From NCBI GenBank assembly GCA_016211085.1, contig JACQSY010000078.1, forward strand, positions 1 to 64,000: a DNA stretch of 64,000 nt. Reading direction: 5' to 3'. The notes beneath the pieces were generated by a model. That model was given only the letters and a program-made list of their open reading frames with translations, searched no databases and was not told the origin of the DNA. Position 1 is the first letter of the stretch. The number at the start of each line of letters is the position of its first letter. This stretch comes from Acidobacteriota bacterium. GTDB lineage: Bacteria > Acidobacteriota > UBA6911 > RPQK01 > JACQSY01. A program made the translations under genes and the position numbers. Positions 3,175 to 36,830 of this stretch are shown piece after piece.

Positions 3175-4704
3175 TTACTTCATCAGTGCGGTGATAAATT
3201 TAAGCAGAGCCACTTTTTCAATGGCCGAGCGGTTACCGACAATGGAAACTTTCAAAGCGCCTGCTGCGTTACCCAGCAGCCCTACTTGTTCCATAGGCAT
3301 GCCGCTAGCCACGCAAGGAGAGGTGATGGAATAAAATGCGTCCCCTGCGCCGACAGTATCAACCACATTGCGGTTCAAGGCAGGAATTTTAAAGAACCCC
3401 TCTCTTCGGGAGTAAACCAAACATCCATGATTACCCTGGGTGACCGCCATACATTGTGAATTCAACCTGTTAGTCAGTGTTCTGATGATCTCTTCGAGTG
3501 TACTCGTCCGGTCTTGCAGCGCCAGACGAGCTTCCGGCGCATCGATGCATATATAGTCCGCACGTGGATACTTGGTTATCAAATTATAGCCCGTGTTGGC
3601 GCTGTTCGTTTGCACGTTGATTGCCAGGAACTTCGCCTGCTGACATATGGAATTGATCAGATCAGGACCAAACAGACCGTGGCCGAAGTCGCCAACCAAC
3701 ACAGCATCATAATTCAGAACAATACGCTTCACGTATTCACAAAGCGGGTGATGAACCGGCAAGGGTGTTGCGTCCTCGTCCAGGAAGCTCACCTCAAAAA
3801 GTTTCCGCGTGTAATTAGGTTCCACGAATCTTCGCTTCACAACGGTAGGCGAATCCGGCCGAAAGAAAATTGCCGCATCCACATTCGGTTTTAAATGAGA
3901 TCGCACAAATTCCTCGCGACTGTCTCGCTCCCCCAGGCATGTGACCAAGTGCACCCGATTGCACAGGCTGGCCAGATGGTTGGCGGCTGCGAGGATCCCT
4001 CCTGCAAACACCTCTTCCGAAAGATACTTGGTGGCAATCACGTTTTCCTTGGGAGACTTGCCCATGGGAGAGCAGTAATGATACTCGTCGATGATGGTGT
4101 CACCGATCAGAAGGATTTTACAGTCGGACACTGAGTCGAGATTGGTACGGATATCCTCCTCTTTTATCCGGCGACGGAAATCTTTCAGGAATGCAGCAGC
4201 CTCAGCGGGGTACAAATTAAAAAAGTTGTTCGCCAGAGAAGAAGAGCTGAAAGTGATTTCATCGGTAAAAACAATTCGTCCGCCTATTTTTCGGATCGCT
4301 TCCTCTTCTTCGACGATCCTTCCTGTAATGTCCTTGGAGCTATCCTGATAGTCATTGCCCTTGACATAAATGTCAGGTTTAACAGCCTGTATCGTTTCCA
4401 CGGCTGTTGGCCATTGATTGATCGCTACAAAATCCACCTTGTTCAAAGACGCCAGGACCTCTGCGCGCAGATCCTCGGGAAAAACGGGGCGGCCTGGGCC
4501 CTTGTTTACGAAGCGGTCGGGAGTCACTGTGACGACCAGCACATCTCCATGCTGACGTGCGGCTGCCAAGTGCCGGATGTGCCCCGGATGGATCAAGTCG
4601 AAAACACCATGACACAAAACAACTTTCTTTTTGGCGAGCTTGAGGTCAGCAACAATGCCGCTCAGCTCGTTGATACTCTTAATCTTCTCTAAGCTCTCAC
4701 TCAT
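3175..4704 (-). CDS. HldE-like bifunctional protein with swapped order: nucleotidyltransferase then PfkB kinase
   Basis: Residues about 27-160 form a cytidylyltransferase-like domain with the nucleotide-binding HPGH motif at 39-42 and a serine-rich motif at 152-156. Residues about 195-509 form a PfkB (ribokinase-like) kinase ending in the GAGDAF catalytic motif at 452-457. In E. coli HldE (RfaE) the kinase comes first and the adenylyltransferase last, so the order here is reversed. The expected chemistry is phosphorylation of a heptose phosphate at C1 and transfer of a nucleotide to it, giving an NDP-heptose. The 509-residue length fits two complete domains. A GGAG sits upstream of the ATG. 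Because both motif sets are intact I expect both activities, but the substrate is unknown. Confidence 0.8.
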   Translation of the reverse strand: MSESLEKIKSINELSGIVADLKLAKKKVVLCHGVFDLIHPGHIRHLAAARQHGDVLVVTVTPDRFVNKGPGRPVFPEDLRAEVLASLNKVDFVAINQWPTAVETIQAVKPDIYVKGNDYQDSSKDITGRIVEEEEAIRKIGGRIVFTDEITFSSSSLANNFFNLYPAEAAAFLKDFRRRIKEEDIRTNLDSVSDCKILLIGDTIIDEYHYCSPMGKSPKENVIATKYLSEEVFAGGILAAANHLASLCNRVHLVTCLGERDSREEFVRSHLKPNVDAAIFFRPDSPTVVKRRFVEPNYTRKLFEVSFLDEDATPLPVHHPLCEYVKRIVLNYDAVLVGDFGHGLFGPDLINSICQQAKFLAINVQTNSANTGYNLITKYPRADYICIDAPEARLALQDRTSTLEEIIRTLTNRLNSQCMAVTQGNHGCLVYSRREGFFKIPALNRNVVDTVGAGDAFYSITSPCVASGMPMEQVGLLGNAAGALKVSIVGNRSAIEKVALLKFITALMK

Positions 4705-4826: not shown

Positions 4827-5828
4827 TCAACCCGTGCTTGTGCCAAGATAGTTGAACCAGTCGCGGGTTGCTTCTGAAATTGAGTCTGGATCCCAGACCG
4901 GTGCCGAGCGCCAATAGTCGATGTGCTGGAGCATAGCCTCAACACCTTCTTCGAAGGAATATTGCGGATGCCAGCCCAGTATTTTTCGCGCACGGCTCGC
5001 GTCCGCAAAGGTACAGTCAGGCTCACCAGGCCTTTTCGGAACGTAGACCACATCTCCACCCAGCAGCTCGACAAGGCGATTCACACTGTAAGTGGCTCCC
5101 GACCCGATGTTGAAGACCTCATGGCTGACCTCCGATTGTGCGGCCTTTACAAAAGCGTCCGCCACGTCGGTCACATAGGTAAAGTCGCGTGTCTGGGTTC
5201 CGTCCCCCACGACAGTAAAGGGTTTTCCGGCAATTTTCTGCGCGAGAAATACACCAAAGACTGCACCGTAGGTTCCGGAAGTTCGCGACCTGGGGCCGTA
5301 CACATTAAAAAGACGCAACGAGACCACGGGTAGTTTATAGACCTGGCCCCAGTGCATGACGATCTGCTCACCCAGAAACTTCGTCAAGGCATAGGGATAC
5401 TGTGGCCGGATGGCGGCGGTTTCAGGCGTGGGATACATGTCGGGAATGCCGTAACACGAAGAAGAAGCAGCGTAGATCAGGCGCTTTACTCCCCCCAGCC
5501 GGGCCGCCTCAACCACATTGACCGTGCCATCGACATTGCAACGATGGTAATTGAGCGGGTGCTGCATGGAAGGAACAATGTCGGCCAGAGCCGCCAGGTG
5601 AAAGATCCAATCTACTCCTTCAAAAAATCGCCGTACCGTGCTTTCATCTGTTACATCAGCTCTTACAAAGTTGAGCTTTCCGAGTCCGTCGAGACCTGCC
5701 AGATTCTCGATCCGCCCCGTTGACAAATTATCAATGGCTGTCACCTGGTGGCCTTCGCTCAAAAGTCGTTCCACCAAGTGGCTTCCTATAAATCCGGCAC
5801 CCCCAGTAACGATAACCCTACGTTCCAT
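4827..5828 (-). CDS. NAD-dependent sugar epimerase (UDP-glucose 4-epimerase/WbpP-like SDR)
   Basis: This is a 333-residue extended short-chain dehydrogenase. The N-terminal GGAGFIGSHL binds NAD, SSSCYG supplies the catalytic serine, and the tyrosine and lysine lie in YALTK. The GSGATYS stretch near 240 is typical of UDP-hexose(HexNAc) 4-epimerases of the WbpP/GalE group. It probably interconverts UDP-activated gluco and galacto sugars for the glycan. It lies 10 bases from the TIGR04372 glycosyltransferase gene upstream and so is likely co-transcribed with it. The exact sugar cannot be told from sequence. Confidence 0.83.
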   Translation of the reverse strand: MERRVIVTGGAGFIGSHLVERLLSEGHQVTAIDNLSTGRIENLAGLDGLGKLNFVRADVTDESTVRRFFEGVDWIFHLAALADIVPSMQHPLNYHRCNVDGTVNVVEAARLGGVKRLIYAASSSCYGIPDMYPTPETAAIRPQYPYALTKFLGEQIVMHWGQVYKLPVVSLRLFNVYGPRSRTSGTYGAVFGVFLAQKIAGKPFTVVGDGTQTRDFTYVTDVADAFVKAAQSEVSHEVFNIGSGATYSVNRLVELLGGDVVYVPKRPGEPDCTFADASRARKILGWHPQYSFEEGVEAMLQHIDYWRSAPVWDPDSISEATRDWFNYLGTSTG

Positions 5829-5838
5829 AACTTCTCAG

Positions 5839-7494
5839 TCAGCCGGCGATCCCAAGGCCGGCGTGCCAAGCGACCCCGCGTTGCAGCCTTTCAGGTCTCA
5901 AGCCAGTATTGTCAGAACGAGCTTTCGACGGCAGGAGGTACGCATAGCGCTGTAGAAACTCTCGACCGATGCGACTGGACACTCCGTAACTTTCGTAGAG
6001 TGCCGCCAGGCCATTGAACTCGCTTTGCAGAGCTTCGTCCTGCTCACTGTAATGCAGGGTCCCCTCCAAGCGGTCCAGCATCTCCACGACAACCTCACGA
6101 ATCTCCTCGGAACTGTTCGCTATTGCCTCGACTCCATTCACAATCAACACTCGATTGTTCGTGCACTGACGGAAAGGTGGAGCCATGGATTCTTCGAAGT
6201 TCAAATATCGATTTTCTCGGTGGGACCAGTAAAGCTTGGGAATAAACAAATCACGTCTACATACAGCACGCCAATCCATAGGACACACATTGGTCAAAAC
6301 GGAAGGGACGCCGAAGCTGATGGGCAAGCCATTCATTCCAGAAAGTGTGCCGATAAAAAAACGCGCTTGAGCGCAACAGAATACGTCCATCCAATCCGAC
6401 TTGAAGTCACTGCAAGCGTAATCGATGACGTGATCCATCGGGGGGAGCTTCTTCATGGAAGGGTCGCCCAGCCGCACCACCCAGCCTCCTCGGGCCACGA
6501 TCTCTTTGATCGCCGGCAGGTAGGTATTCACATCGGCGTTGCGATGAATACAACCTGAATTTTCTGAGTCTCTGTGAAAGCCTCCCTCTCTCACATGGAG
6601 ACTGACAAACCAGTCGTCTTCGGCCATTCCCAGCTCAGACAGACGGGTCCAACCTCTTTTGCAGTGTTCTTCAGTCAACCTCAATAAAGGCGGGCGCCCC
6701 TCGGATTCCCACTGTTTTTGGATCGCGATCATTCCATTCCAGCACAATTCAACTCTACCGTTGGGAAGGGCCAGCCAAAATGTGTTGAATTCAAGTTGTC
6801 TGGCCAGCCGTTGAAGCCGCTCTACAAGTGAGGGATCTGTGACGATGGTTATGTAGGGGCGCCAATAGTCAAGCAGACAGGGATTCACGACGTAGGGCGC
6901 CAGCAAAATACCCTGGTAGGGAGGTCGCCATCCCAGCATTCCCGTCTTGACAAAGAACTCGAGCTCATTGGCTAATTGGCCGATGGCATTGAGCGTGCCG
7001 GACCGGGTCTGGAGGAAGCGAATTCCCGCCCTCCCGAGAGGATGTGCTTGTGTCAGGGCTTCCTGTTTTGCCAGAGCTTGCCGGACCAGCTCAATCGTTT
7101 CTGAGAATCGGCCCTGGTACAAACGGACCTCGGCAGTTTTATAAAGTGTTTCGATAGTGTCTACATGATCCGGAAGAGCCACCAAGTTTTGAGCTACCCT
7201 CCACCAACAGATCGGCGCTTCGAGTTTTTCCAGCGACGGGCTGGAGTGATGCGATGGATGGTACTCACCCCATAAACGGTCACCGATGGCCATGCATAGA
7301 TTCGCGAGCCGCTGCACGGCATGCGGCAGGTAGGACCTGAGAAACCGGAGAGAACCTTTGCTGCTGATCCGAACCAGCAGATTGCGAACCCGCGTCTGAT
7401 CGGTCAGGAACACGATCAGTTTCAGCGCTAATGCCTTAACAGTCACAGGGTAGGGAGGGTCTTGACGCGATGTGCCGGTCGCCCTTTCCAGCAT
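5839..7494 (-). CDS. TIGR04372-family putative glycosyltransferase
   Basis: The 551-residue protein has no signal peptide. Its C-terminal half matches the TIGR04372 pattern: a strand reading SLHVREGGFHRD near 300 followed by an R-N-A-D-V-N-x-Y stretch, then RLGDPSMK and a segment reading FFIGTLSGMNGLP. The N-terminal half is helical with leucine-rich stretches that may be degenerate TPR helices. Proteins of this family occur in O-antigen loci and are thought to be glycosyltransferases; biochemical proof is sparse. It lies between a methyltransferase gene and an epimerase gene, which supports a role in assembling the same glycan. Confidence 0.72.
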   Translation of the reverse strand: MLERATGTSRQDPPYPVTVKALALKLIVFLTDQTRVRNLLVRISSKGSLRFLRSYLPHAVQRLANLCMAIGDRLWGEYHPSHHSSPSLEKLEAPICWWRVAQNLVALPDHVDTIETLYKTAEVRLYQGRFSETIELVRQALAKQEALTQAHPLGRAGIRFLQTRSGTLNAIGQLANELEFFVKTGMLGWRPPYQGILLAPYVVNPCLLDYWRPYITIVTDPSLVERLQRLARQLEFNTFWLALPNGRVELCWNGMIAIQKQWESEGRPPLLRLTEEHCKRGWTRLSELGMAEDDWFVSLHVREGGFHRDSENSGCIHRNADVNTYLPAIKEIVARGGWVVRLGDPSMKKLPPMDHVIDYACSDFKSDWMDVFCCAQARFFIGTLSGMNGLPISFGVPSVLTNVCPMDWRAVCRRDLFIPKLYWSHRENRYLNFEESMAPPFRQCTNNRVLIVNGVEAIANSSEEIREVVVEMLDRLEGTLHYSEQDEALQSEFNGLAALYESYGVSSRIGREFLQRYAYLLPSKARSDNTGLRPERLQRGVAWHAGLGIAG

Positions 7495-7528: not shown

Positions 7529-8725
7529 TCAATGTTTATGCCTGCCGATCATCTTCCAGAAAGACTCGTCGGCGCTCAAGTGATCCTCGCTGCCGAGCAG
7601 AGCGGTGTAGAGAAGAAAAAGCTCTTCGATTCCAAACTGCTTTTCCACACTTCTGGCTTTTCGTCCTGCTGTTATCGATTGTGACAGCGAATTTTGCGCG
7701 GGCGTGAGAATCGGAGGCCGAAGGAACCGGTCGGTGCCCAGGGGCACTGCGCCGAGAACTCTCCGACCACTGTTCAGGATCAGACGTTTCAGCCGTTGCT
7801 TTGGGTCCAGTGAAAGAGGAAATCCGCCCTGCGCGCCTTCCGTGTCCGCCGGGGCAAATACCGTGACTTTGTCATCATTATGAACCAGCACAAACCCAAA
7901 GTCATAAAACCTTCGCAGTGCCCTACTGATGTCACCGGGTGTGGACCATCCCCAACCTTCGAATATGAATGCTTTCTTCGCCAAGCCTTCACGGCGCAAA
8001 AAATGTTGTGCCATCAGCAGAGTGAAGGAGAGGCTGTCCGGGTGCATCTCACAAAGCGCATGGTTACATGTGACGACGTCAAAAGGTATGGGATCGTCAG
8101 CTTTTAATTCAACAAAATCCCACCACGGCAGGTGTGCAATGACTCCGGTTTGAATGAATCGCAGTTGCTCCGCACCGATTCTCTGCTCAGCACCATCGAA
8201 AACGTGGCCCGCGCTCAAGAAATTCCACAAATGGTTCTGATAAAGGTAGAAGGCCTGAGAAATATCCGTGGCTGCGTACGGGTAGCCTTCCAGCAACAGC
8301 ATCGCACCCAGATATCCGCAGCCCGGGCCGATCTCAAATACCCGGGGCTTCTGCTCTCCAAACAAATAACGAATATGGCGAAAAACATTAAGAGCGCGCA
8401 GCACGCTGGCTCGTGCCACACAGTTTCCGTTGAATTCTTCCTTGCAAAATAAATGAATCTGCTCCGTGAGCGTCCTGAGAAGCTCCAACTCTTCTGTTGT
8501 GATGCTCTCCAGCAACTGACTGAAGGTTTCTTCAAAACGAAGCTCGTGCATCACATCCACGTATTTAAACAGTTCGGATTCTTCCCTGACCCGGAATGGA
8601 TATCCCAAAGATTGGAATACCACGGCCTGGAAAGCTTCAACAACTCTGTTGGGCAGGCGGATTAGAGCCTGCCGTTCCGCGTTTTCGTAAACCGCCAGCT
8701 TCAATCGATTGTGGTTCAAAGTCAT
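7529..8725 (-). CDS. Class I SAM-dependent methyltransferase, polysaccharide-locus type
   Basis: The protein is about 398 residues. Its SAM-binding glycine loop reads EIGPGCGYLG near 140 and is followed by an acidic strand at ATDISQ. About 135 N-terminal residues precede this fold, and about 150 residues after it may bind the acceptor. I cannot place it in a named sugar methyltransferase family. The start is either GTG at 8728 or the ATG directly after it; I chose the ATG. It lies between the UDP-galactopyranose-mutase-like gene and the glycosyltransferase, in the same direction with gaps under 50 bases. A role in methylating a sugar or a non-sugar substituent is inferred. Confidence 0.65.
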   Translation of the reverse strand: MTLNHNRLKLAVYENAERQALIRLPNRVVEAFQAVVFQSLGYPFRVREESELFKYVDVMHELRFEETFSQLLESITTEELELLRTLTEQIHLFCKEEFNGNCVARASVLRALNVFRHIRYLFGEQKPRVFEIGPGCGYLGAMLLLEGYPYAATDISQAFYLYQNHLWNFLSAGHVFDGAEQRIGAEQLRFIQTGVIAHLPWWDFVELKADDPIPFDVVTCNHALCEMHPDSLSFTLLMAQHFLRREGLAKKAFIFEGWGWSTPGDISRALRRFYDFGFVLVHNDDKVTVFAPADTEGAQGGFPLSLDPKQRLKRLILNSGRRVLGAVPLGTDRFLRPPILTPAQNSLSQSITAGRKARSVEKQFGIEELFLLYTALLGSEDHLSADESFWKMIGRHKH

Positions 8726-8772
8726 CACTATCTCGGGATCCAGGTCGAATCAACCCAGGAATCCTCGCTATC

Positions 8773-9903
8773 TCATACTGGTGCCGGCGAAGGTGAGGCG
8801 ATGGCTTCAGCAATTTCTATCGCCTGTCGTATACAGTCGTCAATATCAATGGAATAATCGTAACTTCCGGCCCGTCCAATTGAAAAAACTCCATCAGGCA
8901 TTTCGGCAAAATATCGGCGCGCTTTGGCTTGCTCCGACTGAATGGGAACCGGGTAGTGTTTGCCGTTCATTGAGGGAATTTCCATACCGATCAACGTGCT
9001 GGGAGCCTTGTGGTGGGTAAATTTCTTGTACTCAACCAGTCGGGTAAAGGGCTCAGAGTTCGCGTAGTAGAGAAAATAGACGTTTTCAGGGAAACAGTGC
9101 TCGATGGGTAATACGATCCTGTGAAGGTCCCTTCCAATATAAGGAAGCTCTCCATACACGCAATCGAACAAAATATCCGGGGAGATGGTGTTAATGATCA
9201 CGTCGAAGCGACGTCGCTCGCCTTTGAACACGATCGTCTTATGCGCGATGTCATAATGCTCGATCCTGGTGGATAAGTGAACGGTAGCCTCTGCGGTTGC
9301 AATGTCAAAATATGAATTGTAACCCTCGGAGGCATAAGGGTAGGCAGATAGCGCCGTGTCCCAGGCGGCCCGAGGGCCTTCCTTAAGTGCCACTCCCTTC
9401 GGAGACCAGTGAAAAGTGTCGATCCGCCGATTGTCATCAACCATCCACATTTTCTTTGAGTATCCGTTGATGAATTTTTCATACAGTATGCGGCCGACGG
9501 ATCCAATCCAGTACTCTTCAAGATTGCGGGCCTCGGCGACACCGATAACGCATTGGAGTTCCGTGGTGATCTGGTCGCGGTCAGGCATTCGCAAGATGTC
9601 GTCCTTGTGAATCGGGAAATTATAAAACTGTTGATCTCGTTCTATGTAAGTGAGGAATTGGTGATCGGGACAAGGACGAAGCGGCAGGTACTTATTCAAA
9701 AACTCATAGATCCTTCGATCCTGGGTTAGAAAATGACGGGGCCCGAAGGTATGAGGGTGACCTCCGTACCATGTGGTCCGCACGCCCGCACCCAAAAAAG
9801 GCGCAGCCTCAACCAGTGTGATATCCCACCCTCCCCGCAGCGCCAGTTGATGGCTGGCCGCACATCCGGCCATCCCACCACCGATGATCAGTGCTCTCTT
9901 CAA
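8773..9903 (-). CDS. UDP-galactopyranose mutase-like flavoprotein
   Basis: The 376-residue protein opens with an FAD-binding Rossmann motif (IIGGGMAGC). A FGPRHF segment near 50 corresponds to the GPHxF stretch of UDP-galactopyranose mutase, which contacts flavin. The C-terminal IGRAGSYDYS and the following DIDDCI resemble the GR-x-x-x-Y-x-Y-x-D-M-D tail of the family. Such enzymes contract pyranose to furanose rings on UDP-sugars using reduced flavin. The fit is clear but divergent, so the substrate may not be UDP-galactose. The start is TTG, supported by a GGAGG nine bases upstream; I see no better ATG. The next gene upstream encodes a radical SAM protein. Confidence 0.7.
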   Translation of the reverse strand: MKRALIIGGGMAGCAASHQLALRGGWDITLVEAAPFLGAGVRTTWYGGHPHTFGPRHFLTQDRRIYEFLNKYLPLRPCPDHQFLTYIERDQQFYNFPIHKDDILRMPDRDQITTELQCVIGVAEARNLEEYWIGSVGRILYEKFINGYSKKMWMVDDNRRIDTFHWSPKGVALKEGPRAAWDTALSAYPYASEGYNSYFDIATAEATVHLSTRIEHYDIAHKTIVFKGERRRFDVIINTISPDILFDCVYGELPYIGRDLHRIVLPIEHCFPENVYFLYYANSEPFTRLVEYKKFTHHKAPSTLIGMEIPSMNGKHYPVPIQSEQAKARRYFAEMPDGVFSIGRAGSYDYSIDIDDCIRQAIEIAEAIASPSPAPV

Positions 9904-9958
9904 GATACTAAGCCTCCAAAAAGAAACTGCGTTTCATATTCCTGATATAAGGACGGCT

Positions 9959-11107
9959 CTATGGGCTGTCCTTATCGTCGTGTTCCCAAGCCTTCTCGCT
10001 GTAATAACATCCACGGCATACTTTAGGAATTTCCCCTCTAAGATGTGCCTGCCGGAAGTCCTTATATTCCGCGCTGGTCCATGCCTGGCTGAAACTCTGG
10101 CCCACTGCCAACTCGTAAGCATCGGGGTTACCTATCGTGCAACAGGGAACGGTGCGCAGATCTGAGGAGATGTAAGCCCGCTCAAAGGGCCAGGGACAGA
10201 TCTTTTGTGGAGACACGGTGCTGTACTTCTCAGTGATATTCCAGAACCAGACTTTGACTCCGAGCGCCGCTCCCAAGTCGACCAGCGCCATCAGTCTGGT
10301 ACGATTCAGTTCGTCTTCCACGTCGACCGCCGCGTTTCTCTCAGTCCAGTGATCCATCCCCCAGTTGGTCAACTCCAGCGAGAATACCTGGTTGTTGAAG
10401 CCGGTTTCAGCAGCCAGGCGCACCAAATCTTCGAGTTGATGAGCATTGCCTCGCTGTACCACTGTCCACATTTTAGTGCGCACCACATTGCGCTCTCGGC
10501 AATATCCGTTGATCAATTTGCAGTTTTCAATCACCTGTTCAAATCTCGAGTTGCGTCTAATCGTCTCGAAGGTCACCTTGTCGGCGCCGTCAATTGAAAT
10601 CTGAATTTCATTGACGTCCGTCTCCGCCAATTGCCTGTAATTGTTTTTGAGATGCAGCAGTGAGGCGTTGGTAGTCGTCCGGACCCAGATGTGCTGAGCT
10701 CGAGCGTAACGAATCATTTCAAAAAAAACCTCGCCCTGCATTAAAGGCTCACCAATTCCCTGAAGCTTGATCTCCACCAGCCCATACTGCTCGTCGATCA
10801 ACCGCTTAAAATCGTCAAGCGTCATATCTGCTCCGCGTTTTCCTTTGGGCCAGTCACTCACGACGCACATCGTGCAGCGGAAATTGCAGCGGCTCACATT
10901 TTCTATGTCGAGCTTAATGGGGAGGTAGTCGACCTCCGGGCTACGACGGCAGGAACGCATGTACCGCTCGTAATTTTCCCTTCGCCTCTCCGAACATGAC
11001 AGCGCGAGCTCCAACTCCCTACGGTAGGCTTCTTTGCCGGCGGCGGGTTCGGGCTCTGGCAGATCGCGTAGCTGGCGCCGGGCCTGCCAGGTGTCACTCA
11101 CTACCAT
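9959..11107 (-). CDS. Radical SAM protein with SPASM-like C-terminal domain
   Basis: Residues about 74-81 hold the CxxxCxxC motif that binds the SAM-cleaving [4Fe-4S] cluster (CNFRCTMC). The KLQGIGEPLM stretch is the usual GGEP-like SAM-binding strand. The C-terminal part has a further cysteine set: C-P-W-P, then V-P-C-C, and finally V-C-R-G-C-Y. This fits a SPASM or twitch domain carrying one or two auxiliary clusters. Such enzymes often modify peptides or carry out sugar dehydrogenation or epimerisation. The gene overlaps the upstream epimerase gene by 7 bases and so is probably translated with it. The substrate is unknown; the setting suggests a glycan precursor. Confidence 0.82.
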   Translation of the reverse strand: MVVSDTWQARRQLRDLPEPEPAAGKEAYRRELELALSCSERRRENYERYMRSCRRSPEVDYLPIKLDIENVSRCNFRCTMCVVSDWPKGKRGADMTLDDFKRLIDEQYGLVEIKLQGIGEPLMQGEVFFEMIRYARAQHIWVRTTTNASLLHLKNNYRQLAETDVNEIQISIDGADKVTFETIRRNSRFEQVIENCKLINGYCRERNVVRTKMWTVVQRGNAHQLEDLVRLAAETGFNNQVFSLELTNWGMDHWTERNAAVDVEDELNRTRLMALVDLGAALGVKVWFWNITEKYSTVSPQKICPWPFERAYISSDLRTVPCCTIGNPDAYELAVGQSFSQAWTSAEYKDFRQAHLRGEIPKVCRGCYYSEKAWEHDDKDSP

Positions 11108-12096
11108 TTTGTCTCACTTCCTCTCTCGAGCGCGGCAGATTCATGGGAAGGGCGCCGAGTACCAGCCGTGGCTGCGCTCTCGCCACCCTGCGGTCCCGAG
11201 TTGAACCTCTGCTGGGCATCAAGAGCCTCGACGGTGTTTTCCAAAACGTAGCGTCGGACAATGTCCCGCGTGGCTTGCGGTTCAAAATTGCAGACGCGTC
11301 GCAGCTTTTCAATACTGATCAAAAAGGATTTTCGTGGGGCGTCGGATTCCTGTATTGCCGAACGCGAGCCGGCAAGCGTCACCACAGTTTCGACTAACTC
11401 ACGGATTGTGACGGGTTCGGATGAAGCAAAATTTACAACCTCGGAACCGTGAAACGATTTCTGGATAAGATGGGAAACCCAGCGGTGTATCTCCGCCAGA
11501 TCCACTATATTGTTAAAAAGCGACTCGGGATTGTAAATGACGATCGGCTGGTTGTGGAGAGCCCGCTTCAGCACGGTTCCCACCCACGGAGTAAAGTATC
11601 CTTTACCCACAACCCCCGGAAGCCGGGCCGAGATGGCCGAAAAACACCATTGCTGCTCGTGCAGGATTTCCTCTGCCAGCCGCTTACTTGCACCGTACAA
11701 TCCCGGTGCGACGGGAGGCGTTGTTTCGGTCAACTCCGCGACCGCGATCTCGCCGTAAACTGAAAGTGTCGACAGGTTAATAAAGAAGGTCGCTCCAACT
11801 TTCCTTGCATACTCCACAAGGTTGAGCATGGCAATCACATTGGAGTTCACGTATTGCTCTGCAGTAGAGTTCGGAATTAAGTGAGTATGCGCTGCGGTAT
11901 GGACGACTACTTCGGCGGCGGGAAGTCGATCGATGGGCTGACTGAGGTCTAGCTGATGGACCTCTATTCCGGGCACATTAAGAGAAGCCTTCGGGTTACA
12001 CCGGTACGTGGCAAGAACGGAGTGACCTTCTGAAGCAAGTGCGGCAGCCAGGTACCCGCCGATCAGGCCGCTGCCACCGGTTACCAGGATTCTCAT
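11101..12096 (-). CDS. NAD-dependent epimerase/dehydratase (extended SDR)
   Basis: The 331-residue protein has the NAD-binding GGSGLIGG motif at the N-terminus, a STLSVYG strand with the catalytic serine, and a Y-G-A-S-K catalytic pair, all intact. It resembles NDP-sugar epimerases, dehydratases or reductases, but no feature fixes the substrate. Its ATG overlaps the stop of the cupin gene upstream (ATGA), and its own end overlaps the radical SAM gene. The C-terminal 40 residues are polar, rich in G, S, A and E, and look disordered. It probably acts in the same sugar-modifying step series as its coupled neighbours. Confidence 0.78.
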   Translation of the reverse strand: MRILVTGGSGLIGGYLAAALASEGHSVLATYRCNPKASLNVPGIEVHQLDLSQPIDRLPAAEVVVHTAAHTHLIPNSTAEQYVNSNVIAMLNLVEYARKVGATFFINLSTLSVYGEIAVAELTETTPPVAPGLYGASKRLAEEILHEQQWCFSAISARLPGVVGKGYFTPWVGTVLKRALHNQPIVIYNPESLFNNIVDLAEIHRWVSHLIQKSFHGSEVVNFASSEPVTIRELVETVVTLAGSRSAIQESDAPRKSFLISIEKLRRVCNFEPQATRDIVRRYVLENTVEALDAQQRFNSGPQGGESAATAGTRRPSHESAALERGSETKW

Positions 12097-12653
12097 CGGG
12101 TTAGCTTCCAGCAGGCGGCCTTCCGGACCAAGTTTTCTATGTAGGTTCGAGCCTCTTCCTTATCCGAACCGTCCGGGCACCAGTCGGGATAAATACTGTC
12201 TCTTTCCCCGAGAAAAGGCCCTGGTTTTGCTTCGTGGTAGATAACGTATTCACTGATCGGAATCACGGTATGCCACTGGTTTGCACCCACTCTGCAAATC
12301 AAATCGCGCCCTTCTCCCAGCAAGGATACGTGTAGGACCTCACCAGCGTCGTCGAAGGCAAACATCGCTATTTCCCCCTGCATGAGATGGCACGATTCTC
12401 CCTTGGAGAGATGCTTGTGCGGGCGATAATAGTGGTGGTCCCTGTACTCGAGAATAACCATTTCATGAAAGCTGGCTTCGGGCGTCGTATGTAGGCATAT
12501 GCGGGCATTGCAGTTCCCGTTATCCCGCGACAGCCGGATGAGCTGCTGCACGACTTCCCGGTTTATCCACGAAACATCGCCGGTCCAGTAAAATGAGAGT
12601 GATTTTGCGTTCAGGTCCCGTCTCACTTGACTGCCGGCAAAGAAATCGCTCAT
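12093..12653 (-). CDS. WbuC-family cupin-fold metalloprotein
   Basis: This 186-residue protein matches the WbuC (TIGR04366) pattern. It has a short N-terminal segment with a conserved R-x-C-L-H strand, and then a cupin core with Y-R-P-H-K-H as metal-binding histidines and W-H-T-V on the second cupin strand. WbuC occurs in many O-antigen loci, but its reaction is not established; a role in sugar modification or binding is inferred. A longer reading frame begins 60 bases upstream. I chose the ATG at 12653 because it overlaps the stop of the RmlD-like gene as ATGA and starts with the family's typical N-terminus. Confidence 0.75.
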   Translation of the reverse strand: MSDFFAGSQVRRDLNAKSLSFYWTGDVSWINREVVQQLIRLSRDNGNCNARICLHTTPEASFHEMVILEYRDHHYYRPHKHLSKGESCHLMQGEIAMFAFDDAGEVLHVSLLGEGRDLICRVGANQWHTVIPISEYVIYHEAKPGPFLGERDSIYPDWCPDGSDKEEARTYIENLVRKAACWKLTR

Positions 12654-13555
12654 ATTATGACTACGCCCTTCGCGCGCAACCCCCCGAAAGTCTCTGAAAA
12701 CTCGGTACAGCAATCAAGAACACTCCTGAAACTCAGACCGGTGGCTCCCCGTATTTTTTCTGAACTCATGGAGAGGTCCAGGGGACGATTATCGAGGAAC
12801 TCGAAGTCTCCAATGCTGCATTCAATCACAGGGGTTCTCATTCCCAGCTGGTCCAAAAACACTTTTAACATGCCCAGCCGGCTCCAAGCCTCATGACCGC
12901 TGACATGAAACACGCCATTGAGGCCCAGGTTGATTACAGCTTGGACACACTGAACGACGTTGGTCACACAAATGGGGGAAAAAATCTGATCATAAGCGCA
13001 TCTGATTTCCTCGCCTTTTAAAATCTGTCTGAACCAGCTCGCAAGGATGGTGTCATCGTTGGCATCGGCACTAAATACCTTGGCCAATCTCAGAATCGCG
13101 AACCGCTCACAGCGCCTCCCTATGTACTCTTCCATTTCCAGCTTCTGTCTTCCGTAAACCGTATTGGGGAGGGGCTTATCTTCCTCGGTGTAATTTCCCC
13201 GGCAGCCATCAAAAACGTACTCTGATGACATGAACACCGGTTTAATTTCGTGATGTGTCAATTCGTCAATCAGAATCTTTACACTTTCCACATTGACGAC
13301 CTGCGATCTTTTTACATCAGCCTTACAGTCATCGATCCTTGTTATTGCATAACAAATCACGGCATGGCTAAAGCCTGCATCCAAGTGAAGCACTTCGGAA
13401 AGTCGCATCCGGGTCGCATCAAAAAAAATACAGTTCGAAGCTGGACGTGAATTGAACGTTCCCACGGCACGATCGCCCAAAGCCTGCAGCAAGCGTGAGC
13501 CGAGATAGCTCGACGCGCCAATGACCAGTACCTTTTGGCTGGAACTTCCCTTCAT
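12650..13555 (-). CDS. RmlD-like NDP-4-keto-sugar reductase (SDR)
   Basis: The 301-residue protein has a divergent nucleotide-binding loop, GASSYLGSRL, a SSEYVFDG strand and a Y-G-R-Q-K catalytic pair. The SSEYVFDG-x-x-G-x-Y pattern is typical of dTDP-4-dehydrorhamnose reductase (RmlD). I infer that it reduces a 4-keto-deoxysugar. No RmlA, RmlB or RmlC is in the window, so a classic dTDP-rhamnose operon is absent. It appears to be the first gene of a coupled set: a 164-base non-coding gap precedes it, and the next three genes overlap in series. Confidence 0.78.
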   Translation of the reverse strand: MKGSSSQKVLVIGASSYLGSRLLQALGDRAVGTFNSRPASNCIFFDATRMRLSEVLHLDAGFSHAVICYAITRIDDCKADVKRSQVVNVESVKILIDELTHHEIKPVFMSSEYVFDGCRGNYTEEDKPLPNTVYGRQKLEMEEYIGRRCERFAILRLAKVFSADANDDTILASWFRQILKGEEIRCAYDQIFSPICVTNVVQCVQAVINLGLNGVFHVSGHEAWSRLGMLKVFLDQLGMRTPVIECSIGDFEFLDNRPLDLSMSSEKIRGATGLSFRSVLDCCTEFSETFGGLRAKGVVII

Positions 13556-14808: not shown

Positions 14809-15471
14809 TCATTCAAAATAGATGAACTCAAAATCTCCGGTATAGCCAAAATGGTTGTAAAGCCAAATCCACTCAGCGGTGTCAAAGAATGACTCCGCCG
14901 TGAGCGCCCAGCACTGCAGATTGAAGAGTTCTCTCTCATTGCGATAACTCTCAACCATAATGTACTTGTTCTTACCTACCCGTTCGATTTCGCTGATTGC
15001 GGACTTTAACTCAAAGACGCGGAGATTGTGCAAGCATCCGAGTGAGATCACCAGGTCAAAATACTGGTCCCCCCATGGCAAAGGGTTCTGGGCACGATAT
15101 CTAAACAAGCAGGGCCGGATCAGGTCAGGAGCATCCTGAAGACCGTGTCTTGAAACATCAAAACCGTGCACCTCCGCTTCAGGCAGGAGCTGCTTCAGCT
15201 CATAAAGCAGGTGAGCTTTGCCACAACCTACGTCCAGGATCCGGGAAACCCCTGTCAATCTGTATTTATCGATCAATGCTTGAGCAACCGCTTTCCATCG
15301 ACCGTCGTAGCGGTATCCCCCATAACCATAACGCCGGTCTCCATCCCAGTAATCGGTCTCATACTCTTTAGCCTTCAACATGCAGTGGACCTTGTCGTCG
15401 ATCATTCTTGCGAGATAATCCCGCGAAGTCCGCTTGTGAAGAGGCGTGACAATGTTCAGCAAATTACCCAC
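14809..15471 (-). CDS. Class I SAM-dependent methyltransferase
   Basis: This is a compact 220-residue methyltransferase. The SAM-binding motif RILDVGCGKAHLL lies near 75, the acidic strand reads VHGFDVS, and motif IV reads FDLVISLGCLHN. It is a stand-alone catalytic domain without an obvious partner domain. The GTG start is preceded by GGAGGGAGG. It lies between the transketolase C-half and the dehydrogenase and is probably in one transcript with them. It may methylate the sugar made by this module; the acceptor atom is unknown. Confidence 0.72.
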   Translation of the reverse strand: MGNLLNIVTPLHKRTSRDYLARMIDDKVHCMLKAKEYETDYWDGDRRYGYGGYRYDGRWKAVAQALIDKYRLTGVSRILDVGCGKAHLLYELKQLLPEAEVHGFDVSRHGLQDAPDLIRPCLFRYRAQNPLPWGDQYFDLVISLGCLHNLRVFELKSAISEIERVGKNKYIMVESYRNERELFNLQCWALTAESFFDTAEWIWLYNHFGYTGDFEFIYFE

Positions 15472-15485
15472 TTGAGTCCTCCCTC

Positions 15486-16454
15486 CTAGTCAGTATGGGA
15501 TCTATGAGTGGCAGCTACAGATCTGCGTGGCTTTGACAGCAGTTCTTGAACGACACAAACAACCCCTTCCGCGGTGATTTTGCACCGCGTCATCAGACTG
15601 TCCTGTGAACCATACTCATCCGGAAAGATATCGGGGATCCCCACTCTCTTAAAGCCTCTGTGGCCTGCAAGATCCGCCTCCGCGATCAGTTCCGCCACCG
15701 CGCTTCCCAGCCCGCCCACAATGGTGTGCTCTTCGACCGTGACGACCGCGTCGACCTTGGAGACTCGCTGCAAAATAGCCTCCGTATCCAGGGGCTTTAT
15801 GGTTGGCAGGTGCAACACCGCAGCCTGGATCCCTTGGCGATTTAGATTCTCCGCCGCCTCCAAGCCAATTTTTAGCGTGACCCCCGTCGTGAGGATCAGG
15901 GCATGCGATCCTTCCACCATCGGCACCGCTTTCCCAATCTGCACCGAAAAATCGCCACGGCTCACGATGGGATCTCCACCTTTCGCAAGCCGAATATACA
16001 GAGGACCATCGTGATCGACAGTCAAGGGCATCAGGCGGCGCATTTCGTTGGCGTCAGCGGGGGCAATAATCGTCATGTTCGGAAGGGAGCGAAGAATGGC
16101 GACGTCCTCTATTGCCAGGTGGGTCGGGCCCAGAGGCGCGTATACCAGCCCTCCTCCATTGCCGATCAACCTCACCTTGACGTGATGCAAACATAAATCG
16201 AGGACAATTTGCTCGAAGCACCTTCGGGTTAGAAAAGTGGCTATGGTATTGACATAAACAATCTTGCCTTCGATTGCAAGGCCGGCCGCCATACCGATGA
16301 TATTCGCCTCACAAACTCCCTCCATGAAGAATCTTCCCGGCATTTCCTGCTTGAACTGCTTGAGAGTGCCGTACCCCAAATCAGATCCGACAAAGAAAAT
16401 TCGCGGATCCTGCTTTGCTAGTTCATAAACGAGATCAAGGCAGGTCTGGCGCAT
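15486..16454 (-). CDS. Transketolase-like C-terminal subunit (pyrimidine-binding and C-terminal domains)
   Basis: The 322-residue protein matches the second half of transketolase/DXS. A FMEGVCEANIIGMAAGLA segment holds the glutamate that activates thiamine diphosphate. A THLAIEDVAILRS stretch follows, and the C-terminal domain contains TVEEHTIVGGLGS. It abuts the N-terminal subunit, whose stop ends one base before this start, so the two should form one heteromeric enzyme. Split transketolases in secondary-metabolite and glycan loci transfer two-carbon units from a ketose. Here it might build or trim a branched or higher-carbon sugar; this is an inference. Confidence 0.85.
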   Translation of the reverse strand: MRQTCLDLVYELAKQDPRIFFVGSDLGYGTLKQFKQEMPGRFFMEGVCEANIIGMAAGLAIEGKIVYVNTIATFLTRRCFEQIVLDLCLHHVKVRLIGNGGGLVYAPLGPTHLAIEDVAILRSLPNMTIIAPADANEMRRLMPLTVDHDGPLYIRLAKGGDPIVSRGDFSVQIGKAVPMVEGSHALILTTGVTLKIGLEAAENLNRQGIQAAVLHLPTIKPLDTEAILQRVSKVDAVVTVEEHTIVGGLGSAVAELIAEADLAGHRGFKRVGIPDIFPDEYGSQDSLMTRCKITAEGVVCVVQELLSKPRRSVAATHRSHTD

Positions 16455-17318
16455 TTAAAACACCGCATCCAAAGCTTCGAGCATCGCGCGAATTTCTTCG
16501 TCGCTCACGCGACTCTTGTGATGCCACTTTAAGTTGTTTTCGACAAATTCGATCCCTTTGCCTTTTACAGTGTGGCAAATGATTGCGCTTGGCTTACCTC
16601 TGTCAAGCGGCAAGGAACGAAAGCTGCTCCGCAATTCATCCACGTCATGTCCGTTGACTTCCGCTACCGCAAATCCGAAACTTCGCCATTTGTCACCAAA
16701 AGGCTCCAGGTCCTGAATTTCAAAAGTGGAGCCACAGGACTGTTGCTTGTTGTAGTCAACAATAACGGTTAGATTGCTCAAGCGGTGCTTGCCGGCACAC
16801 AGAGCGCCTTCCCAGATTGAGCCCTCGTTGGACTCACCATCTCCAACCGCAACGAACGTACGGTAGTCTGCCTTTTCATATCTTGCATTCAGAGCAAAGC
16901 CAATTCCAATGGACAGTCCATGGCCCAAACTCCCGGTAGACGCCTCAACCCCGGGTATCTTGTGCTCAGGATGCCCCCCGAGAATCCCGTCGCGATGGCA
17001 AAACTTCCACAGCTCTTCTTCAGGAAAGAACCCTTTTTCCGCCAGCATCACGTACAGGGCCAGACAGCCGTGGCCCTTGCTGAGAATGAAACGATCTCGC
17101 TCTCGCCAATGCGGGTTTCGCGGATCGAAACGAAGCACGTCGTCATAAAGGACTCTGAGGATTTCCACAAGTGAGAAAGCGGAAGCAATGTGACCGCGCC
17201 CCCCGGCTTGCAACATCCTAATAATCGTCTTTCGCAGCAAACGGGATCTTTCGTCAAGCACAGTCAAGTCGCGCCGCAGAGGAGAGACGTTCTTATCGCT
17301 TGCAGATGAAGGTTTCAC
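16455..17318 (-). CDS. Transketolase-like N-terminal (thiamine diphosphate-binding) subunit
   Basis: The 287-residue protein is the first half of a transketolase. It has a GGRGHIASAFSLVEIL start, GHGCLALYV, a TGSLGHGLS loop and the GDG-x(n)-N thiamine diphosphate motif, from GDGESNEG to VDYNKQ. It has no pyrimidine domain, which is supplied by the adjacent subunit. The GTG start lies within the end of the kinase gene (26-base overlap). This overlap ties the kinase, the transketolase and probably the HAD phosphatase into one biosynthetic module, distinct from the central pentose pathway. Confidence 0.86.
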   Translation of the reverse strand: MKPSSASDKNVSPLRRDLTVLDERSRLLRKTIIRMLQAGGRGHIASAFSLVEILRVLYDDVLRFDPRNPHWRERDRFILSKGHGCLALYVMLAEKGFFPEEELWKFCHRDGILGGHPEHKIPGVEASTGSLGHGLSIGIGFALNARYEKADYRTFVAVGDGESNEGSIWEGALCAGKHRLSNLTVIVDYNKQQSCGSTFEIQDLEPFGDKWRSFGFAVAEVNGHDVDELRSSFRSLPLDRGKPSAIICHTVKGKGIEFVENNLKWHHKSRVSDEEIRAMLEALDAVF

Positions 17319-19976: not shown

Positions 19977-20966
19977 TCAACGAAGGCCCAAGGCCTGCAT
20001 CGTTTTGATGTTGTAATAACGGATGTTGGTCATTGCATCCGGAATCATGCTTCTATTGAATGCGTCCACAAGGTCAGTGATCGCATCCTCAATCGTCCGC
20101 CGTGGGACAAACCCCAATTCCCTCTGGATCTTCTCTGAGGAGATGTGATACGACCTCTTGTCATCGGTCGGAACGTTCACGATTTCCACTGTATCGCCGA
20201 CGATCGACTGAACCATCCGGGCAATCTCAATCACCCGGTGGTTTTGGTAACCTGCGTTAAAGACCTTGCCATCGATTAAGGCTTCCGGCCACCCCAGCGC
20301 CTGAAGGTACAAATCAGTGACGTCATCTATGTGAATATTAGGCCTCATTTGCTCACCACCGAAAACAGTGATGCGTCCGTTGTTGACAGCATGGTTGGTC
20401 AAAATGTTAACGGTGAGATCCAGTCTCAATCGGGGCGAATATCCACACACCGTGGCCGGACGCAGAATCAATGTCGTGAACCCTGGTTGGCGTGCCTTGT
20501 TCAGAATGTCCTCGCACAGGGCTTTATATTTTGAGTAGTCCGTTAAGGGCCGCAATGGCAATTCTTCTGTTACATTTTCCTCCTCACTGACGCCATAGAC
20601 GCTGGAGGACGAAGCGTAAATGAACCGGCTCACGGCCGCATTCTTTGCCACGTCCACCAGATCGATAAATGCGTCGTAATTGATGGAGCGGCCCAAATCC
20701 GGATCCAACTCAAAACTGGGGTCGTTGGAAATGCAGGCTAGATGAATCACGGCGTCGCTACCAGGAACGACTCGTTCCAACAGCTTTCGGTCTCGAATAT
20801 CGCCTTTGATCTGTTGCAAGTTCGGATGCTCCCGGACTGCTGCGAGCACCTCTTCTCCGTAGATATACAGATCCAGGACTTTGACGCGATAACCGCGCGC
20901 CAGGAGCTTTGGAACGAGTACCGAGCCGACATAACCCGCACCACCTGTAACTAAAACCGTCTTCAT
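19977..20966 (-). CDS. NAD-dependent epimerase/dehydratase (extended SDR)
   Basis: The 329-residue protein has GGAGYVGSVL at its N-terminus, an SSSSVYG strand and an intact Y-S-K-Y-K catalytic pair. The R-P-N-I-H-I-D-D-V and F-N-A-G-Y-Q-N segments are typical of NDP-sugar 4-epimerases or 4,6-dehydratases. It is closest in pattern to the 29593-30528 protein of this locus: both have GGAGYIGS/GGAGYVGS and an R-P-A-T/R-L-A-T strand after the catalytic pair. An AGGAAG lies just before the ATG. The specific sugar is not determined. Confidence 0.8.
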   Translation of the reverse strand: MKTVLVTGGAGYVGSVLVPKLLARGYRVKVLDLYIYGEEVLAAVREHPNLQQIKGDIRDRKLLERVVPGSDAVIHLACISNDPSFELDPDLGRSINYDAFIDLVDVAKNAAVSRFIYASSSSVYGVSEEENVTEELPLRPLTDYSKYKALCEDILNKARQPGFTTLILRPATVCGYSPRLRLDLTVNILTNHAVNNGRITVFGGEQMRPNIHIDDVTDLYLQALGWPEALIDGKVFNAGYQNHRVIEIARMVQSIVGDTVEIVNVPTDDKRSYHISSEKIQRELGFVPRRTIEDAITDLVDAFNRSMIPDAMTNIRYYNIKTMQALGLR

Positions 20967-23550: not shown

Positions 23551-24524
23551 CAGATGACATCCGCAAAGTAACGCTCCACGCGACGAAAGACCATCGCCCC
23601 GGCGAAAAAAAACCAGCATCCCAAAACTCCAGCCATACCCATCGGCACTATGGGAACGGCTTGTCCCCCAAGTACCGCCCAGCGAAAGCCTTCAATGACT
23701 CCGACCATCGGATTGAGCGCATAAAGAAGTCTCCACTCCTCGGGAATAATCGTGACCGAATACACCAGCGGTGAGCCATACATCCAAACTTGCAGGATAA
23801 AAGGGAGCGCATACATGAAGTCGCGATAATAAACGTTCAGAGCAGACAAAAACAGACTCACCCCCGTAGTGGTCAATAGCATGACTGGAATAAGCGCTGC
23901 CAGGGCCAATAGGTTCCACGTAGGCTGAACACGATACGCCAGCATTAGAACCACCATGACCGTTAACGACACGGCAAAATCGACCAATACGGCGGCAGAA
24001 CTTGAAATAGGCATGATCATACGAGGGAAATACACTTTCGAAATAAGTCGGGATTCGCCGATCAGACTGTTGCCGGCACGTTGCAAGGAGGCGGCAAAAA
24101 AGTTCCATGGAAGCATGGCGGAATACACAAACAGCAGATAGGGCTTCCCATCAGAGGGCAACTTAGCCAGGTAACCAAAAATGACTGCGAAAATACCGGA
24201 AGCTAAAAGTGGCTGTAGGATGACCCAGATCACTCCCAGGGCCGTTTGCTTAAAGCGCAGCCTCACGTCTCTACCGGCGAGTATCAACAGCAAATCACGG
24301 AACTCCCATAGCTCATACAAGTTGATTGCCGCCCAGCCTTGTGTGGGCTGCAGTCGAATGTGACGCACCTCCACCGGCTTAGTCCGCGGGAACGCTCCAG
24401 CCGGCGCTTGACCGAGGGAGACATTCGCGGTCATAGCCGCCCCAGCCGCCTCCCTTGAATTCGGTTCATGCACATCCGCTAACTGGTCCACTCCGTTTTC
24501 CTCCAAGAAATTGTTGCGCTTCAC
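23550..24524 (-). CDS. wzm: Wzm-type ABC transporter permease
   Basis: The 324-residue protein has an N-terminal cytosolic stretch of about 75 residues, then a WEFRDLLLILAGRDVRLRFK amphipathic segment and six hydrophobic helices typical of the ABC-2 polysaccharide-export permeases. The cytosolic LGVIWVILQPLL stretch is a family hallmark. The start is GTG, joined to the stop of the GHMP kinase as TAGTG. The N-terminal 55 residues are polar and low in pattern; an alternative start at an internal ATG would remove about 30 of them. It forms the channel for the Wzt ATPase encoded next to it. Confidence 0.88.
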   Translation of the reverse strand: MKRNNFLEENGVDQLADVHEPNSREAAGAAMTANVSLGQAPAGAFPRTKPVEVRHIRLQPTQGWAAINLYELWEFRDLLLILAGRDVRLRFKQTALGVIWVILQPLLASGIFAVIFGYLAKLPSDGKPYLLFVYSAMLPWNFFAASLQRAGNSLIGESRLISKVYFPRMIMPISSSAAVLVDFAVSLTVMVVLMLAYRVQPTWNLLALAALIPVMLLTTTGVSLFLSALNVYYRDFMYALPFILQVWMYGSPLVYSVTIIPEEWRLLYALNPMVGVIEGFRWAVLGGQAVPIVPMGMAGVLGCWFFFAGAMVFRRVERYFADVI

Positions 24525-30528: not shown

Positions 30529-30540
30529 ATGCGTGGAATC

Positions 30541-30619
30541 AGAGGCGCGCACGAAGCGTGAGCGGAGTAAGCGCTCGCGTTTGTTGCTGCAAAAAGCGCT
30601 CGCTCACGCTCGCGCCTCT
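30541..30619 (-). repeat. Full-length palindromic repeat (copy A)
   Basis: This 79-base element begins AGAGGCGCGCACGAAGCG and ends TCGCGCCTCT, so its ends are inverted copies of each other. The arms also share AGCGCT near the centre. It fills most of the 113-base gap between two epimerase genes. Copies with the same outline are at 35278-35353, 35400-35439 and, inverted, 150-182. Strand is arbitrary for a palindrome. It may fold into a hairpin in the transcript. Confidence 0.75.
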
Positions 30620-36815: not shown

Positions 36816-36830
36816 TTTTCTTGTCACCCC

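Follow-up and report, generated by a model that had tools for sequence, protein, structure and literature searches.

In this study, we examined two neighbouring genes in the first 64,000 nucleotides (hereafter the window) of contig JACQSY010000078.1 from an Acidobacteriota bacterium. One encodes a flavoprotein resembling UDP-galactopyranose mutase (UGM), the other a radical S-adenosylmethionine (SAM) protein with an auxiliary-cluster domain. Their pairing across genomes is more than chance and, because the two genes are found together in distantly related bacteria as well as on one viral contig, they probably help build an unusual surface-glycan sugar. As a full mechanism we propose, with a probability of roughly 40%, a sugar-tailoring module that would join radical dehydrogenation or epimerisation to flavin-dependent ring isomerisation. 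The pair and the adjoining short-chain dehydrogenase/reductase (SDR) gene are:

8773..9903, minus strand: UGM-like flavoprotein of 376 amino acids, forming its own branch within the UDP-galactopyranose mutase superfamily (PF03275, 4.9e-31; family alignment and tree)
9959..11107, minus strand: radical SAM protein of 382 amino acids with a C-terminal twitch-type auxiliary-cluster domain at about residues 304-368 (PF04055, PF13186, cysteine invariance)
11101..12096, minus strand: SDR of the epimerase/dehydratase family (PF01370, 1.4e-27)

Both genes of the pair are complete and intact and lie 55 bases apart. The UGM-like gene starts with TTG, with GGAGG upstream, and the radical SAM gene with ATG; the starts are preceded by ribosome-binding-like motifs, as judged by eye. 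The interval given in the initial annotation is exact and holds both genes, as open reading frame (ORF) calls and Pfam confirm, and its coupling of the SDR to the radical SAM protein is borne out by the 7 bases that the 3′ end of the SDR gene shares with the radical SAM start. The SDR itself matches the Pfam Epimerase model PF01370 at 97.1 bits (cut-off 20.9).

The association was assessed in an even sample of 385 alphaproteobacterial genomes (the class of genome G065), with a threshold of E ≤ 1e-40 for the radical SAM protein. The UGM-like gene was present in 11 genomes and the radical SAM gene in five, all five being among the 11 (Fisher p 6.7e-9, uncorrected for relatedness and too small, since some of these genomes are close kin). 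Co-occurrence had been proposed beforehand as a check on the idea of radical chemistry combined with ring contraction; the nesting gives that idea a real gene association, and the likeness to BtrN described below fits its radical dehydrogenation part. A UGM-like search of genome contigs gave 14 loci, and the radical SAM gene was present at 1e-20 in eight of the 13 genomes searched for it (all except that of locus L026); as these genomes were picked via the UGM-like gene, the 385-genome sample is the fairer test. One of the records, L017, is titled Frankia sp. RB7, and its UGM-like gene nests among Bradyrhizobium sequences; it is probably mislabelled or contaminated.

Among 297 genomes from the window's own phylum, each gene occurred once, in the window genome, which makes it likely, judging from this distribution, that both were transferred into it. 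Mis-binning of the contig was rejected: the 12 best matches of its glyS-beta gene outside the window's genome all come from same-order genomes at 51-58% identity, with two further same-order matches ranking lower (55% over part of the gene, and 48%), so the contig looks native.

The two genes are usually linked, sharing a contig in 12 of the 14 radical SAM loci at distances from 25 bases to about 13.7 kb. They are separated by 25 bases in G065, 39 in G068 and 55 in the window; by 1.7 kb in G066, 2.0 kb in G115, 3.8 kb in G353 and 5.8 kb in the viral record G456; and by about 13 kb in the Bradyrhizobium-type genomes G061-G064 and 13.7 kb in G067. In G364 and G442, both fragmented assemblies, they lie on separate contigs. 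An SDR homologue directly adjoins the radical SAM gene in seven of the 14 loci (window, G061-G064, G066 and G364), the two genes being convergent rather than in series in G061-G064. In G353, a gene for a B12-binding radical SAM protein (L065:8141-9724) overlaps the UGM-like gene by 4 bases, and two proteins in G456 are related to it (26-27% identity).

This arrangement bears on a different reading, in which the two enzymes tailor different sugars of one polysaccharide and are co-inherited because the repeat unit needs both. Such a division of labour would suit a window with many further sugar genes, two HddA-like kinases and several SDRs among them, as well as the occurrence of the UGM-like gene without the radical SAM gene in six of the 11 alphaproteobacterial genomes and the wide spacing in G061-G064. 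It sits less well with the direct adjacency in G065, G068 and the window, with the nesting of all radical SAM genomes within the UGM-like ones, and with the presence of both genes on one viral contig, and we consider it unlikely.

At the family level, the UGM-like protein passes the GLF model PF03275 (108.5 bits; gathering cut-off 26.3), has an FAD-binding Rossmann match (NAD_binding_8, 3.2e-11) and so belongs to the superfamily. It fails the UDP-galactopyranose mutase equivalog TIGR00031, scoring 81.9 bits where 303.75 are needed, and the initial annotation was therefore right to call it divergent. Relatives with 52-69% identity to it occur in Bradyrhizobium, Azospirillum and SAR11-type genomes. 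We compared residues, in DrUGM numbering, between 25 family rows and 10 canonical UGMs. The family rows comprise alignment A1 (the window protein and 13 relatives at the identities just given) and 11 rows from the alphaproteobacterial sample, together 23 distinct genes and two repeats, with the Bradyrhizobium rows nearly identical to one another; the canonical set consists of eight search-derived sequences, including the very divergent L035, and two PDB chains.

Y179, W184, R305, E308, Y335, R364 and Y370 are identical in all 25 family rows, and R305 is also kept in 10/10 canonical rows. Other positions have changed. H85 is Arg in 25/25 family rows versus His in 10/10 canonical ones; R198 is replaced by Lys in 24 and by Ser in one, versus Arg in 9/10; T180 is Asn or Ser in 25/25, versus Thr in 10/10; H88 is Leu in 24/25, versus His in 7/10; and Y209 has a counterpart in none of the 25. 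At the N296 position, 10 of the 12 family rows examined there, four viral ones included, have Tyr, while L025 has Ser and L054 His; the canonical rows have Asn in 9/10 and Tyr in L035. At H109 our script alignment gives Asp or Glu, with a near-invariant His one column later that phmmer pairs with H109. The family thus lacks the combination of paired arginines (R198 and R305) and FAD-loop histidine (H85) that marks a UGM proper. The residue roles tabulated for DrUGM include N296 as a uracil contact (PMC3624792); we claim no role for E308 here. Judged by the R198, H85, N296 and Y209 positions, the substrate has most likely changed.

In a midpoint-rooted tree of 39 rows, nine canonical UGMs group at 99/99, apart from the 29 family rows (94/81, with an open fork), while L035 forms a very long branch. 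By sequence, then, the protein stands apart within the UGM superfamily, on its own branch, with most of the catalytic residues retained. An AlphaFold model of modest confidence (predicted local distance difference test, pLDDT, 65.5) agrees on the fold: its first 21 structural matches are all UGMs (Z 20.9 to 16.7), headed by E. coli UGM (Z 20.9, 3.3 Å over 212 residues) and including several that deviate by more than 10 Å, and the first non-UGM flavoprotein follows at Z 16.5, with fungal UGMs mixed with others below that.

The same changes at H85, R198, T180 and Y209, together with the shortfall against TIGR00031, could instead mean that the protein is no longer a mutase and acts as a flavin oxidoreductase, or carries out another flavin-adduct reaction, on a nucleoside diphosphate (NDP)-sugar. 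In the Aspergillus enzyme, R182K (equivalent to DrUGM R198) retains about 0.10 of activity and R327K (equivalent to R305) 0.015 (PMC3893270), so that Lys at the R198 position could still allow some mutase activity. All 25 rows retain R305, whose counterpart in fungal UGM (R327) is the more critical of the two arginines, together with six further residues, and UGMs are the closest folds of the predicted model. A complete change of reaction appears to us quite unlikely.

Turning to the radical SAM protein, it matches Radical_SAM PF04055 at 61.1 bits (cut-off 29.5) and SPASM PF13186 at 27.5 bits (cut-off 21.5). Across an alignment (A3) of 14 sequences, including the window's and 39-65% identical to it, the core motif CX3CX2C and five C-terminal cysteines (C304, C322, C323, C364 and C367) are invariant. 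A SPASM motif has seven cysteines, which bind two auxiliary clusters, and a twitch domain has one before and one after a beta-hairpin and two after helix alpha2′ (PMC6231123). With fewer C-terminal cysteines than the seven required, the domain is of the twitch type and probably holds a single auxiliary cluster, and the SPASM assignment was rejected although PF13186 scores over its cut-off. The initial annotation of a radical SAM/SPASM enzyme with auxiliary-cluster cysteines therefore stands as to the auxiliary domain and is corrected as to its type.

A profile of the last ~80 residues finds BtrN as its best PDB match. The alignment is weak (E 0.019) and shows a BtrN-like twitch pattern, with C304, C322, C364 and C367 aligned with four BtrN cysteines that are presumably the ligands of its cluster. 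BtrN is a radical SAM dehydrogenase that catalyses the two-electron oxidation of 2-deoxy-scyllo-inosamine, a cyclic amino-polyol; four cysteines ligate its auxiliary cluster (PMC9012708). With the whole protein as profile, PqqE is the best PDB match (1.3e-11) and BtrN follows at 2.8e-4 through its twitch part (positions 302-372).

A redox-neutral radical reaction on the sugar, such as dehydration, rearrangement or C-C bond formation, would have a precedent in MoaA, which matches the radical SAM core and is itself a twitch enzyme that reacts without net electron loss; the MoaA cluster, however, has three cysteines and an open iron site (PMC9012708), whereas four cysteines here align with BtrN and its four-cysteine cluster, and for this reason we weakly favour dehydrogenation and hold MoaA-type chemistry to be very unlikely. 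It is likewise highly improbable that the enzyme is a maturase of a partner protein (a metalloenzyme, for example, or the UGM-like protein itself) or of a peptide: PqqE heads the PDB matches and maturases rank second and third among the NCBIfam models (TIGR04317, 94.1 bits; TIGR04311, 90.2 bits), but all maturase matches fall under their curated cut-offs, UGM-like genes occur without the radical SAM gene, and the 44- and 55-base gaps and the overlapping junction hold no precursor ORF (none was sought further away).

More broadly, no NCBIfam cut-off was reached among the best 25 of 57 models, the top score being 94.2 bits against a cut-off of 170, and the coding-strand gaps between 8600 and 12200, the region searched, contain no free ORF of at least 25 amino acids. 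On these grounds we rejected a maturase of ribosomally synthesised and post-translationally modified peptides; a known peptide-modifying family with a precursor gene nearby had been named in advance as what would overturn the sugar proposal, and neither appeared within that range of models and positions. Viperin (pVip) was rejected as well, with NF038283 at 54.4 bits against 180 and the PADLOC pVip model at 60.9 bits over residues 72-230 only.

The pair lies within a surface-polysaccharide cluster that includes ABC exporter genes (PF00005, with a Wzt_C match under cut-off, and PF01061), a TIGR04372 glycosyltransferase, two HddA-like kinases and several SDRs. Further genes of relevance are:

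3175..4704, minus strand: HldE-like fusion with reversed domain order (PF01467 at residues 31-130, PF00294 at residues 197-495)
4827..5828, minus strand: SDR of the shared cassette, type c3 (PF01370, 5e-65; homologues in related loci)
5839..7494, minus strand: TIGR04372-family glycosyltransferase (229.4 bits; cut-off 45)
7529..8728, minus strand: putative NanM-like sugar O-methyltransferase (TIGR04371, 37.1 bits, under the cut-off of 44)
12093..12713, minus strand: WbuC-family cupin (TIGR04366, 91.8 bits; cut-off 42)
12650..13555, minus strand: RmlD-like SDR (PF04321, 2.4e-35)
14809..15471, minus strand: methyltransferase recurring near the split transketolase (PF13847, 3.7e-16)
15486..16454, minus strand: split transketolase, C-terminal half (PF02779 and PF02780)
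16455..17318, minus strand: split transketolase, N-terminal half (PF00456)
19977..20966, minus strand: SDR of the shared cassette, type c1 (PF01370, 1.8e-39; homologues in related loci)

The two HddA-like GHMP kinases (24524-25519 and 31690-32784) have nucleotidyltransferase genes close by and are possibly part of a second heptose-type pathway. A myo-inositol-1-phosphate synthase gene (35499-36827) lies at the cluster edge.

We tallied neighbours over 27 loci sets (the window, 22 further genomes and four viral records), whose flanks are unequal and often ended by contig ends. An HldE-like fusion was found in 11, both transketolase halves in 11 (including the window, where the split gene at 15486-17318 sits inside the polysaccharide cluster), a transaldolase in nine, a TylF-type methyltransferase in 12, an SDR homologue in 16, the radical SAM gene in 14, and the cupin and the NanM-like methyltransferase in five each. 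Cupin homologues are close to the UGM-like gene in three of the four viral contigs, and a NanM-like homologue stands beside it in viral records G457 and G459 and in G067. The HldE-like protein of the window has its cytidylyltransferase-like domain first and its PfkB kinase second, an order shared by a relative near the UGM-like gene in L074, and fails the equivalogs TIGR02198 (115.8 versus 345 bits) and TIGR02199 (114.8 versus 181.5).

G193 and G297, both without the radical SAM gene, carry a consecutive run of GmhA-like, GmhB-like, transaldolase, two SDR, HldE-like, GFO/IDH, NDP-sugar dehydrogenase, SDR and UGM-like genes, followed by methyltransferases, and their transaldolase passes the TIGR02134 cut-off. 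Such transaldolases are found in 36 of the 385 genomes, in eight of the 11 with the UGM-like gene versus 28 of the 374 others (p 3.7e-7). In those eight, the two genes lie within 10 kb in five, on the same contig at 23 and 35 kb in two and on different contigs in one; a ninth UGM-like genome, G070, has a transaldolase just under the cut-off. These transketolase or transaldolase and GmhA-, GmhB- and HldE-like neighbours suggest a heptose or other higher-carbon NDP-sugar, a reading that is independent of the radical SAM protein. Mutases that interconvert pyranose and furanose forms of GDP-heptose are known (PMC10680097). For Bradyrhizobium, the published bradyrhizose operon comprises eleven genes around a dTDP-glucose 4,6-dehydratase (PMC4743980).

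Viral contigs also carry these genes. A scan of IMG/VR with the radical SAM alignment gave 23 loci and one close relative (57%), on the 128.8-kb record G456, which also carries the UGM-like gene (L109:12209-13309, L110:49-1167) and has a portal protein and a weak terminase match downstream of the radical SAM gene. The UGM-like alignment added three records (L111:171-1340, L112:10375-11550 and L113:4417-5583), in which we found no radical SAM protein of the window's family. In G458 the UGM-like gene is close to primase, helicase and family A DNA polymerase genes, and one protein of G459 weakly matches a virion structural protein; G459 shares many proteins, mostly 74-97% identical, with G457. 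The set in G457 and G459 comprises an SDR, a WbuC cupin, a NanM-like methyltransferase and the UGM-like gene, four kinds of gene that the window has too.

In the tree, the viral UGM-like genes occupy three positions, with support that is modest, so that acquisition on more than one occasion is possible. One SDR encoded by G456 (L109:9398-10333) is 63% identical to another SDR of the window (29593-30552), which suggests exchange between phages and such clusters. Two genes for B12-binding radical SAM proteins and one for a DegT aminotransferase are also present in G456. Searches of plasmids with both proteins, and of phage records with the UGM-like protein only, gave no match at 1e-30.

In comparison with known systems, the UGM-like protein has in common with UDP-galactopyranose mutases the fold, the FAD domain and the seven invariant residues, and differs in its separate branch, in H85 to R, R198 to K, N296 mostly to Y and the loss of Y209, and in often having a radical SAM partner. 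We liken it by description to the Campylobacter GDP-6-deoxy-heptopyranose and CDP-fucopyranose mutases, and compared it by sequence with the Campylobacter UDP-GalNAc mutase (4mo2); NDP-heptose and CDP-fucose mutases have precedent (PMC10680097, PMC12369002). The radical SAM protein has in common with BtrN of butirosin biosynthesis the radical SAM core and a twitch with four aligned cysteines; only the twitch part of BtrN is matched, the window protein has about 70 residues before CX3CX2C, and its neighbours are NDP-sugar genes. As for the heptose pathway of GmhA, GmhB and HldE, distant homologues lie in the relatives' cassette, with the HldE-like one also in the window; they score under the equivalog cut-offs, and the HldE-like domain order is the reverse of that in E. 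coli HldE (PRK11316). Both viral UGM-like proteins scanned, the scan covering viral members only, match phrog_9677, a phage family without recorded function, at 98.0 and 98.5 bits along most of the sequence.

From these genes, families, residues and linkages we infer each reaction of the proposed module, its order, substrate and product. The cassette would make and tailor an activated sugar for a surface glycan. In the UGM-like protein, N5 of reduced FAD would attack C1 of an NDP-sugar, open the ring and allow it to reclose in the other size (pyranose/furanose); the substrate would not be UDP-galactose and probably not UDP-linked. The radical SAM enzyme would use its 5′-deoxyadenosyl radical to take a hydrogen atom from a sugar carbon and pass the second electron to the single twitch cluster, in a BtrN-like dehydrogenation, after which the coupled SDR would reduce the ketone, the net result being an epimerised or redox-tailored sugar. 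The weakest steps are the action of the radical SAM enzyme on that same sugar and a sugar of seven or more carbons.

Several observations weigh against this mechanism. The radical SAM gene is absent from six of the 11 alphaproteobacterial genomes with the UGM-like gene, which makes the radical step optional, and from five of the 13 in the smaller set (four SAR11-type, one Bradyrhizobium). Both structure models are modest (pLDDT 65.5 for the UGM-like protein and a poor 58.2 for the radical SAM protein), and many matches of the former have a root-mean-square deviation above 10 Å. Mutase activity could be weak or replaced, since the fungal R to K change leaves only about 0.10 and H63N impairs fungal UGM function in vivo (PMC3893270). 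On the radical side, the BtrN match is weak and PqqE is the best match overall, and sequence clustering does not reveal function in SPASM/twitch enzymes (PMC6231123). As to the sugar, TIGR02134 transaldolases occur in 28 genomes without the UGM-like gene; by the tally criteria the window has no GmhA-like or transaldolase gene, having the transketolase version; and 12 of the 27 loci sets have neither a transaldolase nor both transketolase halves in the stretch covered, some of which end at contig ends.

A wider proposal is that a mobile radical/flavin module is common to several phyla and phages, in which a twitch dehydrogenase and a re-tuned UGM-like mutase would have the same higher-carbon NDP-sugar as substrate, one that is probably not linked to UDP, and would give an undescribed furanose with which phages would remodel the host glycan or decorate their own products; we offer it as a speculation that probably does not hold in full. 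Among the titles of open-licence papers listed, none links UGM-type and radical SAM enzymes, which does not imply absence from print, and in that literature one Lactococcus genome comparison was the sole paper to pair the terms galactopyranose mutase and radical SAM.

In conclusion, were the proposed mechanism true, radical chemistry would be tied to pyranose/furanose isomerisation on nucleotide sugars. The organisms concerned include Bradyrhizobium and Azospirillum, and SAR11-type genomes with the UGM-like part alone, and carriage on viral contigs suggests a role for the sugar in contact between phage and host. For assays, the pair offers a small set of candidate enzymes, with controls that are clear.

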